64,000 bases of DNA from Selenomonadales bacterium (lineage in GTDB: Bacteria; Bacillota; Negativicutes; Sporomusales; UBA7701). Under the pieces are notes generated by a model. It saw nothing but the letters and a program-made list of their open reading frames with translations. It ran no database searches and was not told the origin of the DNA. Positions 32,594-37,984 of this stretch are shown here, piece after piece. Position numbers and translations under genes: made by a program. Numbering within the stretch: the first letter of the stretch is position 1; every line of letters begins with the position of its first letter. Location of the stretch: assembly GCA_018434945.1 (NCBI GenBank), contig JAHDOI010000029.1, forward strand, positions 1 through 64,000, given 5' to 3'.

Positions 32594-33292
32594 CTACTCG
32601 CCGGCTTTGCGGCGTTCCTGATTCTTTTCGCTCATATGCAGCAGCAGCGTCTGTTCGGCGTTGTCGATGTGTTTGCGGGCCAGTTGCTGGGCTAGGGCCG
32701 GGTTGCGCCTGGCCAGCGCCTCGACGATGCGGCGGTGTTCCTCCAGCGAACGCTTCGCTCGCCCCGGGTATCCGTAGGAGATGGTCCGGAAGACGGTCAA
32801 TTTTTCCCGCAGATTGCTGATGATGGCGGCCAGCGTTTTATTGTTGGTGGCGCCATACAGGATATCGTGGAAACGACAGTCGGCCTCGACGATTTTCGCG
32901 GTGTCGCCCTTTTCTATGTATTCGCCGATCTCTACCAGCATTCTTTCCAAATGCTCAAGGTCGTCCTCGCCGATCCGTTCGGCCGCCAGGCCGGCTGCGA
33001 GCACCTCGAGGGCGGAGCGGATCTCGAACACCTCGTTGATGTCGCGGATGGAAATATCGGCGACATAGGTGCCGCGGCGGGGCGCCATGACGACGAACCC
33101 TTCCTGCTCAAGCTTGCGGATCGCCTCGCGGACCGGGGTGCGGCTGACCCGGAGCTGCTCGGCCAACTGGTTCTCCATGAGGCGCTCCCCGGGCTGCAGC
33201 AGGCCGCTGGTGATAGCGTTGCGCAGTACGTCGAATACGACTTCGCGGAGCGGTTTGTAATTATCGAGATGGATTGGCGACATGCTGCCCAT
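32594..33292 (-). CDS. GntR family transcriptional regulator, FadR/FCD subfamily
   Basis: A 232-residue repressor. The winged helix (about residues 10-75) contains LAEQLRVSRTPVREAIRKLEQEGFV, the GntR recognition helix, followed by an FCD helical ligand domain (EIRSALE, CRFHDILYGATNN with metal-ligand-type D/H, EHRRIVEAL). ATG 33292 has GGAGG seven bases upstream. FCD members usually bind organic acids. A FadR/PdhR-type half-site pair lies about 200 bases upstream at 33493. Confidence 0.9.
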   Translation of the reverse strand: MGSMSPIHLDNYKPLREVVFDVLRNAITSGLLQPGERLMENQLAEQLRVSRTPVREAIRKLEQEGFVVMAPRRGTYVADISIRDINEVFEIRSALEVLAAGLAAERIGEDDLEHLERMLVEIGEYIEKGDTAKIVEADCRFHDILYGATNNKTLAAIISNLREKLTVFRTISYGYPGRAKRSLEEHRRIVEALARRNPALAQQLARKHIDNAEQTLLLHMSEKNQERRKAGE

Positions 33293-33492
33293 GGGTTTAT
33301 TCCTCCTCGGATCGTACGTGCCGGCTTAATCGCAAATTTCTACAGAAAAATATACAGATATAAAATATCACAGTTTTTCGCCTGCGGTCAACATTTTTGC
33401 CGAGTTGGCGGTTTTTGCAACCGGAAATCGCTTTTGAGACAAGCGAAAGTTATAAAAACTAGAAGAATTATAAATATTAGAACAACGGTATG

Positions 33493-33509
33493 TTGGTCAG
33501 ACCGACCAG
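33493..33509. promoter_or_regulatory. Dyad operator, candidate GntR/FCD site or sigma-54 activator site
   Basis: TTGGTCAGACCGACCAG contains GGTC-A-GACC and TGGTC-N5-GACCA. It resembles TTGGTNNNACCAA-type operators of FCD regulators with one mismatch. It also sits about 120 bases upstream of the sigma-54 promoter, a usual activator position. The remainder of 33293-33629 is AT-rich with no gene seen. Confidence 0.45.
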
Positions 33510-33629
33510 CAGGCGACCCCCTGGCGCCGGCGGTTGCCCGCAGGCTTGTCACACGGCGGCTTCTATTTTTTATAACTGCGGTCGCGGTAAGGTTCGCCCC
33601 AAAGCCTGCAAACACTGAAAAAGTCTTGC

Positions 33630-33645
33630 TGGCACGCTTTTTGCA
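33630..33645 (+). promoter_or_regulatory. Sigma-54 (RpoN) -24/-12 promoter
   Basis: TGGCACG, four bases, then TTGCA, an essentially perfect match to the TGGCACG-N4-TTGCW consensus with the GG and GC dinucleotides 12 bases apart. The 63-residue protein gene starts 43 bases further on. Confidence 0.85.
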
Positions 33646-33687
33646 ATATACTGCTGCGAGTTGATTAATGTGGGGAGGGTTTATAGA

Positions 33688-33879
33688 ATGAAGAAAACCC
33701 ATTGGTGTGAGCATCTCGAGAAAGCATCCAAGTATACTACGGTAGGATATGATTTCAACGACCGCAGGATGACGCTGAGGGTCCAGACGTGGCTGTGTCC
33801 CGAATGCGGGGTTTACGGCGCCCACAGCGAGATAATCGATACGCCGCCCGGTGGACGCGACCCGGCCGAAAGGGAGTAA
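33688..33879 (+). CDS. Hypothetical Cys/His-containing small protein, 63 aa, sigma-54 controlled
   Basis: Not recognised. Possible metal ligands are Cys7 and His9 in HWCEH and Cys37/Cys40 in LCPECG, consistent with one zinc or Fe-S site. Between them is a beta-prone stretch (YTTVGYDFNDRRMTLRVQTW). ATG 33688 has GGGGAGG eight bases upstream; a TTG at 33661 is in frame but precedes the ribosome site. A perfect sigma-54 promoter upstream and a terminator downstream make it a monocistronic unit, next to a sigma-54 activator gene that may control it. Confidence 0.75.
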   Translation: MKKTHWCEHLEKASKYTTVGYDFNDRRMTLRVQTWLCPECGVYGAHSEIIDTPPGGRDPAERE

Positions 33880-33893
33880 ACGGCAAATCATCC

Positions 33894-33924
33894 ACCTCGC
33901 CAACGCAGGTTGGTGAGGTTTTTT
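33894..33924 (+). terminator. Terminator of the sigma-54 micro-operon
   Basis: ACCTCGCCAAC pairs over 11 bp (one G-U) with GTTGGTGAGGT and is followed by a six-base T run. Confidence 0.85.
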
Positions 33925-34095
33925 ACCGCCGGAAACATCGTTTCCCCGTAACGGATATAAGCGGCATTCCAGGCCGTTATTCCTGCCCGGGGAGATGCCG
34001 CTGACGACATCGCTGACCTAGCTCAACCGCGAGGCCAGCGTTTTGCTTTCAGTCGCCTCCCCGGCGGCTGGGGGCACGTTCCAAAAAGAACTTTG

Positions 34096-34124
34096 TTGTC
34101 ACCGGGTGTAAGGTAAAATATAAT
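34096..34124 (+). promoter_or_regulatory. Sigma-70-type promoter of the sigma-54 activator gene
   Basis: TTGTCA (34096-34101) and TATAAT (34119-34124) with a 17-base spacer, in the otherwise featureless 33925-34157 interval. Confidence 0.65.
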
Positions 34125-34157
34125 GATTTATAATAATTAGAACGCAGGAGCTGTGAT

Positions 34158-35864
34158 GTGTACAAAGTTGCAATAATCGGTCTGGGCAAGGGCGGCACGG
34201 TTGTGTACCAGACTCTGAAAACAACGAAAAACGTCAGCATCCTCGGTGTCGCCGATATAGACCCCGAAGCGCCCGGAGCGTTGCTGGCCCGCCAGGACGG
34301 GGTTTTCGTCACAACCGATTTCACCGCGCTCCTCGCCCTTCCCGACGTTAACATCTACATCGAAGCCACCGGCCGTCCGGAAGTGCGTGAGAAGCTGCTG
34401 GCCCGCAAACCGGCAAACGCGGCCATCATGGACGGCAAAGCGGCGGAACTGATGCTCACCATCCTTGATGAGACACAGCAGCTGATCGAGATCAAGAACA
34501 TCAAAGGCCAACTCGACGCTATCCTCAATTCAGTGCAGGAAGGCATCGAGGTTGCCGACACCGACGGCACGGTAAAATACGTTAACCCCTCATCAGCGAA
34601 AATATCCGGCATCAGCGCCGCAGACCGCATCGGCCAAAACATCTTCCAGGCATCGCCAAACGGGGCGTTGGCCCGCTGCCTCCGCACCCGCCAACCGGTA
34701 TTCGGCCACCGCAGCGTCATCAGCGGCACGAAAATCGAAGTCGTCTCCAACGCAGCCCCCATTTACGCCGGCGACGGCGGCGAGGTGGTGGGCGCCGTAG
34801 TCGTCTTCCAGCCCCTCACAGACGTCATGCGCCTCATGGAACAGCTCCAGCGCCAGTCGCGGCTCCTTGAGCGCCTGTCGGTCAAATTCGGCGAAGTGAC
34901 CAGCGCGAAATACTCCTTCGACGATGTGCTCGGCACAAACCCCGTGCTGCGGCAGGTCGTCGAGATGGCCCGCAAAATCGCCGATACCAACTCAACGGTG
35001 CTCATCATGGGCGAGAGCGGCACCGGCAAAGAGCTTTTCGCCCACGCCATCCACAACACCAGCAGCCGGCGGAACTTCCCCTTCATCCGCGTCAACTGCG
35101 CCGCCGTCCCGGAAACGCTCCTGGAGAGCGAATTCTTCGGCTACGAGAAAGGAGCCTTCACCGGAGCCACCGAAAGCAAGATGGGCAAATTCGAACTCGC
35201 CAACCGCGGGACGATCTTTCTTGACGAAATCGGCGACATGCCCCACCAGCTCCAGGGCAAGCTCCTCCGTGTCCTGCAGGAGAGGGAGATCGAAAGGGTG
35301 GGAGGCACGCAGCCTAAACCGGTCGACGTCCGGGTCATCGCCGCCACCAACCGCGACTTGGCAAAACTGATCGCCGCCGGCACCTTCCGCGAGGACCTCT
35401 ACTACCGACTCAAGGTCATCGAGTTGACCATGCCGCCCCTCAGGGACCGCAAGGAGGATATCCCCTTGCTGGTCGACAGCGCTTTAGCACGCTTTAACCG
35501 TCTGCTCGGCAAACGCATCCGCAGCTTCTCCGCCGGGGCCCTGGCAGAGATGAAACGCTACGATTGGCCCGGAAACCTGCGTGAGCTGGAAAACGTCGTC
35601 GAACGGGCGGTAGTAACCGCGGACGGCGACACGATCACCGCCGAGAAGCTCGGACCGCTGGCCGATTTCCCCAAACGCGACCTTAGCCTGCGCGACACCG
35701 ACGTCATGACCTTCGAAGAAATGGAGCGCCGGCTGATCGGCCTGGCGATCGCCAAATACGGCCACAACCTCGACGGCAAAAAACAAGCGGCGGGGGCGCT
35801 CGGCATCTCTCTGGCCACCCTGTACAACAAACTGCGCAAATACGGCCTGGGAGATGCGCAATAA
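34158..35864 (+). CDS. Sigma-54-dependent activator: Rossmann + PAS + AAA+ + Fis-type HTH
   Basis: A 568-residue enhancer-binding protein. It begins with a nucleotide-binding fold (VAIIGLGKGGTVVYQTL, ADID, EATGRPEV; about residues 1-105) like those of homoserine dehydrogenase-type proteins, followed by a PAS domain (about 115-225). The AAA+ domain (about 250-490) has Walker A GESGTGKE, the sigma-54-contacting GAFTGA, and the switch FLDEIGDM. A Fis-like HTH ends the protein (GKKQAAGALGISLATLYNKLRKY). Start is GTG 34158 with GGAG upstream. It lies between the sigma-54 micro-operon and the fumarase genes. The redox-nucleotide sensing role of the N-terminal domain is inferred. Confidence 0.9.
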   Translation: MYKVAIIGLGKGGTVVYQTLKTTKNVSILGVADIDPEAPGALLARQDGVFVTTDFTALLALPDVNIYIEATGRPEVREKLLARKPANAAIMDGKAAELMLTILDETQQLIEIKNIKGQLDAILNSVQEGIEVADTDGTVKYVNPSSAKISGISAADRIGQNIFQASPNGALARCLRTRQPVFGHRSVISGTKIEVVSNAAPIYAGDGGEVVGAVVVFQPLTDVMRLMEQLQRQSRLLERLSVKFGEVTSAKYSFDDVLGTNPVLRQVVEMARKIADTNSTVLIMGESGTGKELFAHAIHNTSSRRNFPFIRVNCAAVPETLLESEFFGYEKGAFTGATESKMGKFELANRGTIFLDEIGDMPHQLQGKLLRVLQEREIERVGGTQPKPVDVRVIAATNRDLAKLIAAGTFREDLYYRLKVIELTMPPLRDRKEDIPLLVDSALARFNRLLGKRIRSFSAGALAEMKRYDWPGNLRELENVVERAVVTADGDTITAEKLGPLADFPKRDLSLRDTDVMTFEEMERRLIGLAIAKYGHNLDGKKQAAGALGISLATLYNKLRKYGLGDAQ

Positions 35865-35942
35865 AGAGAGCAGTTAAACTACGCGGGAGAAAATCCGGAC
35901 AGGGCCTGTGAGGCAATACTGTAAAAGTAAAGGAGGCCATTC

Positions 35943-36788
35943 ATGCGTACTGTGGAAGCTGGTCAGATCACCGCGGCGGTGGCGAAGCTCGCCATCGACG
36001 CCAACTACTACCTGGCCGAGGATATCTTCGGCGCCTTGAAGAACGGGCAGAATACGGAGGAATCGCCGCTCGGCCGGGAAATCTTCGGACAACTGGTGAC
36101 GAATGCCTGCATCGCCCGCGAGCAGGATATGCCCATCTGTCAGGATACCGGCATGGCGGTCGTCTTCATGGAAATCGGCCAGGACGTCCGCATCGTCGGC
36201 GGCGACCTCGAAACAGCCGTCAACGCCGGCGTCGCCGAAGGCTATACCGGAGGCTACCTGCGCAAGTCAGTCGTCGACGACCCGGTTTTCATCCGCAGGA
36301 ATACCGGCGACAACACGCCCGCCATCCTCCATATCGCCATCGTCCCCGGCGACAAAATCAAAATAACCCTCGCCCCGAAGGGCTTTGGCAGCGAGAACAT
36401 GAGCGCCCTGAAGATGTTCCCGCCCTCAGCCGGAGTCGCCGGCATCAAGAAGTTTGCCGTCGACACCGTGAGCGCCGCGGGCTCAAATCCTTGCCCGCCG
36501 ATCGTTATAGGCATGGGCATCGGCGGCACGATGGAAAAGGCGGCCCTGCTGGCCAAAAAGGCTTTGACAAGGCCGATAAGCGAGCGTAATGCCAACCCGG
36601 AATACGCTAAACTCGAGACGGAAATTCTCGAACTTGTCAACAAGACGGGTGTCGGCCCGCAGGGGTTGGGCGGCACCGTCACCGCCCTGGCGGTCAACAT
36701 CGAGTATTTCCCAACCCACATCGCCGGCATGCCGGTCGCGATCAACATCAACTGCCATGCCACCAGGCATGCGGAAATCGAAATATAG
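35943..36788 (+). CDS. Fumarate hydratase class I, alpha subunit
   Basis: [4Fe-4S] hydratase interconverting fumarate and malate; the alpha part carries the cluster. The 281 aa include ICQDTGMAVVF (cluster Cys), NTGDNTPAILH, KGFGSENMS, PPIVIGMGIGGTMEKAA and GPQGLGGTVTALAV. GGAGG precedes ATG 35943. It is followed after 13 bases by the beta subunit, the split form common in anaerobes. It could also be tartrate dehydratase alpha, a close relative. Confidence 0.9.
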   Translation: MRTVEAGQITAAVAKLAIDANYYLAEDIFGALKNGQNTEESPLGREIFGQLVTNACIAREQDMPICQDTGMAVVFMEIGQDVRIVGGDLETAVNAGVAEGYTGGYLRKSVVDDPVFIRRNTGDNTPAILHIAIVPGDKIKITLAPKGFGSENMSALKMFPPSAGVAGIKKFAVDTVSAAGSNPCPPIVIGMGIGGTMEKAALLAKKALTRPISERNANPEYAKLETEILELVNKTGVGPQGLGGTVTALAVNIEYFPTHIAGMPVAININCHATRHAEIEI

Positions 36789-36801: not shown

Positions 36802-37359
36802 ATGGCCGAACCTATCCGCATCACAACCCCGCTCAGCGCGGACTTTGCCCGGAAACTGCGGGCCGGCGACAGCGTTCTCATCACCGGTGACATCTATACC
36901 GCCCGCGACGCCGCCCACAAACGCATGATCGAGGCCCTCGACCGGGGGGAAAGGCTCCCCATCGATATGCGTGACCAAGTCATCTACTATGTCGGGCCGA
37001 GCCCGGCGAAGCCCGGACAGCCTATCGGTTCGGCCGGACCGACGACCAGCGGCCGCATGGACGCCTATACCCCCAGGATGCTGGCCGAGGGGCTCAGAGG
37101 CATGATCGGCAAAGGATACCGCAGCGCCGAGGTTGTCGAGGCCATGAAAAAGCACGGCGCGGTCTACTTCGCCGCCACCGGCGGGGCCGCAGCCCTAATC
37201 GCCCGCGCGGTTAAGGGTTACGAGGTCGTGGCCTACCAGGATCTGGGCGCCGAGGCATTTGCCAAAATGACTGTCGAGGATTTCCCGGCAATCGTCGTCA
37301 TCGACAGCGAGGGACGCAACTATTACGAGGAAGGTCAGAAACAATACCGACGGCTGTGA
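36802..37359 (+). CDS. Fumarate hydratase class I, beta subunit
   Basis: A 185-residue swivelling domain partner of the alpha subunit. It shows LRAGDSVLITGDIYTARDAAH, YYVGPSPAKPGQPIGSAGPTTSGRMD (substrate-binding block) and TGGAAALIA. ATG 36802 has GGGGGACTGAGAG upstream; the frame is open further back only as a shadow of the alpha gene. It forms an operon with the alpha gene. Confidence 0.92.
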   Translation: MAEPIRITTPLSADFARKLRAGDSVLITGDIYTARDAAHKRMIEALDRGERLPIDMRDQVIYYVGPSPAKPGQPIGSAGPTTSGRMDAYTPRMLAEGLRGMIGKGYRSAEVVEAMKKHGAVYFAATGGAAALIARAVKGYEVVAYQDLGAEAFAKMTVEDFPAIVVIDSEGRNYYEEGQKQYRRL

Positions 37360-37691: not shown

Positions 37692-37792
37692 AGTTATTAT
37701 ACAGCCAGTGCGGTTCACGTACTGCGGAAAAGGGTTTTGAGCGAACGGAGCGAATTAACAATAATAAATAAAGTCGCACGGAGGTGGATGTC

Positions 37793-37984
37793 TTGACGGC
37801 TGTGGCGGCGCAAAAGCTCATGATCCAGTTTGTCTGCCCCAAATGCGGCCGCGACCTCGCCTGGGCGTACGAAAATGCCAGCGTCTACTGCCGGGCCTGC
37901 GACCGGTGGATTTTTGCGCGGGAGATGAAGCATATCAACCCGGCCAAGATAGATCCGGATCAGGACCAGCTGCAACTCTTCTGA
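37793..37984 (+). CDS. Small zinc-ribbon protein, 63 aa
   Basis: Two CxxC knuckles (FVCPKCGRDLAW and YCRACDRWI) form a single zinc ribbon. No further domain is seen. The best start is TTG 37793, eight bases after GGAGG; ATG 37820 lacks a ribosome site and an upstream GTG overlaps it. It is closed by a strong terminator. Function unknown. Confidence 0.7.
   Translation: MTAVAAQKLMIQFVCPKCGRDLAWAYENASVYCRACDRWIFAREMKHINPAKIDPDQDQLQLF

Follow-up and report, generated by a model that had tools for sequence, protein, structure and literature searches.

Why would a bacterium keep a gene of only 63 codons under a sigma-54 promoter of its own, next to a gene for a sigma-54 activator, and what might such a small protein do? 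This arrangement was originally predicted from the bare letters of a contig from a Selenomonadales bacterium. It is considered here within the whole stretch of 64,000 nucleotides that was analysed (the window) and by comparison with related genomes.

The unit and its activator

The original prediction described a complete unit of promoter, ribosome site, 63-codon frame and terminator, and every one of these parts is present on the forward strand. The sigma-54 promoter TGGCACG-N4-TTGCA (TGGCACGCTTTTTGCA, positions 33630-33645), recognized by pattern match and conservation, is followed by a ribosome-binding site (GGGGAGGG, 33672-33679), whose GGGGAG core recurs in similar form in all four relatives, and by the gene itself (33688-33879), which runs from an ATG at 33688 through 63 codons to a TAA stop at 33877-33879 and encodes a zinc-ribbon-type protein with HWCEH and CPECG motifs (C7-x-H9 ... 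C37-x2-C40). An intrinsic terminator, consisting of an 11-pair hairpin and a T tract, closes the unit (33894-33924; predicted fold -19.3 kcal/mol); it is shared with two other genomes of the genus (G001 and G004) and has been lost in a third (G003).

The promoter is far beyond chance. From base composition, TGGCACG-N4-TTGCW is expected 0.018 times per window and about once per genome; it was observed 16 times in the genome, and the same pattern read backwards 0 times. Relative to the sigma-54 consensus TGGCAC-N5-TTGCW (GG at -24, GC at -12, fixed spacing), the site at 33630-33645 matches in 11 of 11 positions, as do its counterparts in three relatives, and no other site in the 64-kb window matches at 10 or more of these positions. 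The perfect -24/-12 element lies 58-63 bp 5' of the small-gene ATG in the window genome (G000) and in G001, G003 and G004, while each of the five genus genomes encodes rpoN (RpoN profile TIGR02395, 460 bits, cut-off 277). The majority of the remaining genomic sigma-54 sites are close to sigma-54 activator genes, transporters or enzymes. One sigma-54-like site, TGGCATGTTTCTTGCT (L136:7883; G000:C100:71882), lies 5' of a 106-residue Cys-containing frame downstream of groEL.

Promoter and frame are both kept in four of the five genus genomes, so that the loss of the frame in close relatives, which the prediction had named as its own refutation, is not seen there. The orthologous proteins in these four genomes are 74-83% identical, and dN/dS values of 0.09-0.16 (six pairwise comparisons) indicate purifying selection. 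At the level of sequence, the window is therefore confirmed to carry a complete and conserved sigma-54-type unit of a known regulatory type. The same values bear on the proposal that the RNA is the functional product and the frame incidental, in the manner of the sigma-54-driven regulatory RNA CrcZ near its activator genes. Sigma-54-driven small RNAs such as CrcZ and CrcY do exist (PMC6292655), and a short transcript, a strong terminator and an adjoining activator would all suit one. Yet selection acts at the protein level, the untranslated leader is poorly conserved, and the protein family occurs in many Negativicutes under other promoters, which makes a functional RNA highly improbable.

The adjacent gene (34158-35864, forward strand) encodes a sigma-54 activator, or EBP, with a Rossmann-like N-terminus, a PAS domain, an AAA+ domain with GAFTGA, which is visible in the translation, and HTH_8 (Sigma54_activat profile match, 2e-74). 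It has a sigma-A type promoter, TTGTCA-17-TATAAT (34096-34124, forward strand), conserved in all four genomes. Full-length orthologs are confined to the four genus genomes that carry the small gene: none with the Rossmann-like N-terminus was found outside them among 250 genomes of the class, and the closest match to the full activator in G002, the fifth genus genome, is 43% identical. The Rossmann-like domain (GLGKGG, 34158-34490) precedes the PAS domain, a combination found in this genus only. Sequence searches with the activator N-terminus returned acetaldehyde dehydrogenase at a weak E of 0.001 only, and a structure model of the N-terminal 231 residues was poor (pLDDT 48). A 254-residue frame elsewhere in G002 (G002:C90:100873) is a 26% look-alike of activator residues 1-144. 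The GLGKGG-containing start and the PAS domain suggest that the activator may respond to an internal redox or metabolite signal.

Given this linkage, the adjacent activator likely switches on the small-gene promoter. The original prediction had gone further, suggesting that this might be a sensor-response pair of a kind not yet described; the link to the neighbouring activator stands, but the pairing of a sensor with a response goes beyond the sequence evidence, and an EBP with one neighbouring target operon turns out to be ordinary. In Clostridiales, activators are mostly encoded beside their targets and many control one target operon (PMC6615313). Those systems have in common with the window a -24/-12 promoter, a PAS-containing activator beside the likely target, and a single target operon; they differ in that the target here is a lone 63-residue zinc-ribbon-type gene rather than a transport or enzyme operon, and in that the activator has a Rossmann-like N-terminus and sits downstream of the promoter.

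A candidate site for the activator lies at 33486-33504, in a palindromic block (CGGTATGTTGGTCAGACCG / CGGTATRTTGGTCAGACCG) picked out by its conservation. The block contains a GGTC-A-GACC palindrome about 125-145 bp 5' of the promoter and matches the -24/-12 element in conservation (identity across four genomes in 15 of 16 columns, mean 6.9); together with that element and the gntR promoter, it heads the conserved elements of the interval between gntR and the small gene. As a palindrome ahead of the promoter and within the cassette described below, it fits an upstream activating sequence. It could alternatively be a candidate operator of the FCD GntR protein, as the block also resembles operators of FCD-type GntR regulators. 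No further WTTGGTCNGACCRA palindromes were found with a search pattern that misses even the copy in the window.

Our preferred reading, to which we would give a probability of about 60%, is that of a sigma-54-dependent small zinc-ribbon gene switched on by the activator encoded beside it. The activator would be made from its own sigma-A promoter at 34096-34124, bind near 33486-33504 and open the RNA polymerase-sigma-54 complex at 33630-33645, and the resulting transcript would be about 270 bases long, ending at 33924.

A small zinc-ribbon-like family of the Negativicutes

Homologs of the small protein were found in 36 of 100 related genomes, although the weakest of these matches (E above about 0.005) are probably chance. 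In a scan covering genomes of 84,980 species, the family (WCEH...LRVQTWxCPECG) was confined to Negativicutes (Pelosinus, Sporomusa, Anaerospora, Lucifera and uncultured relatives); the only exceptions were three matches in genomes of the Ktedonobacteria type (Dictyobacter, Ktedonobacter), all short and partial. When 398 genomes of the phylum were searched, only the window genome's own two copies came up, a result of limited weight because the class in which the family is common was sparsely represented among them. Across 26 aligned members, W6, C7, E8, H9, W35, C37, C40, G41 and G44 are invariant. Literature searches on Negativicutes and Sporomusa turned up nothing on this small-protein family.

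Two types of copy occur in the genus: group a, which includes the window gene and carries the sigma-54 element, and group b, which lacks such an element and is represented in the window genome at G000:C82:99328-99486. A tree of 62 columns, to be read with caution for such short sequences, places group a with Pelosinus sequences and puts group b among other members of the order. By-eye reading of the neighbouring translations puts the group b gene divergent from an FtsA-like gene, with cyclohydrolase, DegV or related genes behind it in several families; it likewise puts a family gene directly upstream of formate-tetrahydrofolate ligase in Sporomusa and related genomes, at a distance of about 20-60 bp (L025, L028, L031, L033-L035, L052). 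Neighbours as varied as these point to no single pathway for the family. Because the second copy has no sigma-54 site, the window gene appears to be a duplicate, placed under regulation, of a zinc-ribbon protein that is generally made, and its product would be used whenever the activator is active. A TAGTACCAG / CTGGTACTA motif recurs upstream of the group b gene (L039, L041, L043, L045 and L046; also in G005, G013 and G046), which may be an operator common to several families.

An AlphaFold2 model of the small protein has three strands and a core pLDDT of about 90. Its structural matches are weak: they include the zinc-ribbon domains of ZPR1 (Z 4.8, the best; 2.1 A over 44 residues) and NrdR (Z 3.6), at scores that unrelated beta proteins also reach, and Foldseek returned nothing at E of 0.001 or below. 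The protein is best called zinc-ribbon-like, outside any named family. It would fold as a zinc ribbon in which C7, H9, C37 and C40 hold one metal ion, and its role would probably be that of an adaptor that binds protein or nucleic acid while dicarboxylates (fumarate/succinate) are metabolized.

Two named families resemble it in part. A sequence search of the PDB gave local rubredoxin-like matches only: the WLCPECG of the window protein resembles the C-terminal rubredoxin knuckle (WxCPxCG), but the similarity is confined to about 10-20 residues, and of the two CxxC knuckles of rubredoxin only the second has a counterpart, the first being CEH in the window protein. The second resemblance is to MqsA/YgiT-type zinc fingers (TIGR03830, PF15731), with which the protein shares a predicted beta hairpin between two metal knuckles that stand about 30 residues from each other; it raises the possibility of a stand-alone antitoxin of that kind, since all 26 members give weak matches to TIGR03830, the best at 7e-5. 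The window protein nevertheless scores 15.2 bits, whereas the cut-off is 61.8. Where MqsA/YgiT has CxxC ... CxxC ligands, C7-E-H9 ... CPEC is invariant in the 26 members, so that a CxH replaces the first CxxC; its 63 residues include no C-terminal HTH domain, and the identified neighbours, GntR and the activator, include no MqsR-type toxin gene as partner. An antitoxin role is accordingly very hard to credit.

A cassette beside enzymes of fumarate and succinate metabolism

The upstream block, promoter, small gene, terminator, the remnant of sdhB described below and the activator together occupy a cassette with approximate boundaries at 33398-35930. It is flanked by a GntR/FCD regulator gene (32594-33292, reverse strand) and by fumA, for the fumarate hydratase alpha subunit (35943-36788, forward strand), which is followed by fumB for the beta subunit (36802-37359, forward strand; named from its position beside fumA and synteny, not from a family search). 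Between fumB and a gene for a chemotaxis receptor with a diacid-recognition domain lies a frame for a 66-residue double-CxxC protein (CPKCG...CRACD, 37784-37984). G002, from the same genus, and G005, from a sister genus, have a response regulator gene, gntR and fumAB in the order of the window, with a gntR-fumA gap of about 290 bp and neither small gene nor activator; homology to the empty G002 site stops near 33397, and homology to G005 restarts near 35931.

Promoter, small gene and activator are present together in four genus genomes and absent together in G002, and this joint presence and the empty gntR-fumAB sites indicate that they come and go together, a linkage that is based on five closely related genomes. 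The simpler reading of these sequences is a gain of the cassette in one subclade, with a loss in G002 as a formal alternative. No plasmid or phage-family relatives were found. Unlike fumA of G002, which is preceded by TTGCCA-17-TATAAT as read from the sequence, fumA in the window has no obvious promoter of its own, and fumAB may therefore now be transcribed together with the activator.

The cassette was once larger. In the sister species G004, intact sdhC, sdhA and sdhB (succinate dehydrogenase/fumarate reductase) lie between the small-gene terminator and the activator, and at 33993-34067 (forward strand) the window retains a decayed remnant of the sdhB 3' end, disrupted by an in-frame TAG and a frameshift and 82% identical to the intact gene of G004 (E 1e-14 when the whole window is searched; 168 bits with flank, the best of 50 shuffles giving 23.8 bits). 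The micro-operon has thus not always stood alone: sdhCAB followed the small gene in the ancestor, and the present unit is a remnant. No sigma-A type promoter was seen in the interval between the small gene and sdhC of G004, and sdhCAB was therefore probably transcribed from the sigma-54 promoter by read-through of the terminator. The ancestor would thus have had sdhCAB behind the small gene, possibly under the same promoter, and the lineage of the window would have lost sdhCAB while retaining the small gene. No SdhA is encoded in G000-G003. A similar sdhB relic is present in G003 and none in G001, so that sdhCAB was likely lost on more than one occasion.

The enzymes that flank the cassette suggest a tie to fumarate/succinate metabolism. 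They also invite the idea of the cassette as a dicarboxylate module in which the small protein would serve succinate dehydrogenase/fumarate reductase and fumarase as a dedicated helper or regulator, either by assisting their assembly or by switching their activity. The position of sdhCAB directly behind the gene in G004 and the ancestor, and of fumAB behind the activator, would agree with this, as would a family member about 1 kb from a fumAB-sdhCAB cluster in G040, from another family. However, that member is convergent with the cluster and sits behind ndk, so its proximity is probably chance; no member is encoded near 20 other fumAB-sdhCAB clusters, the second copy has other genes as neighbours, and selection on the small gene has continued in three genomes that lack sdhCAB. 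On balance we regard such a helper as doubtful. The persistence of selection after the loss also speaks against a leftover leader gene, its purpose gone with the sdhCAB deletion and now drifting. The sdhB relic directly downstream, the loss of the terminator in G003 and the want of a known function would be expected of such a leftover; but dN/dS is about 0.1 also among the genomes that lost sdhCAB, the invariant family residues are intact and the promoter is perfect throughout, and drift thus seems decidedly unlikely.

Beyond the preferred reading of a small gene switched on by its neighbour, we tentatively consider, as less likely, a self-contained cassette in which a dinucleotide-sensing activator (Rossmann-PAS-AAA+) would control one tiny zinc-ribbon protein, an inducible duplicate that would adjust a central enzyme or transcription directly. 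If true, this would be a small-protein response system not described before. Inferred sigma-54 targets are mostly transport and enzyme operons; here the sole target seen beside the activator encodes a tiny protein whose family is undescribed and restricted to one class, and it was retained when the enzyme operon behind it was lost. The function of the family is thereby open to direct test, since the promoter is known, there is one likely activator and a single product of 63 residues, and the cassette is present in some natural genomes and absent from others.

Elsewhere in Negativicutes, the enzymes that flank or once flanked the cassette form clusters in the order fumAB-sdhCAB that lack both the small gene and an immediately preceding sigma-54 promoter, and a scan of 20 such loci gave no site that clearly stands as a sigma-54 promoter for fumAB-sdhCAB. 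In G013 (L141:3575), the transporter gene directly upstream of fumAB-sdhCAB (TIGR00366, AtoE-like) has a sigma-54-like site and an AtoC-type activator in front of it; this is another module. In G042 (L145:4181), TGGCACCGCGATTGCT fits the sigma-54 pattern perfectly and is located about 950 bp 5' of fumA in a fumAB-sdhCAB cluster.
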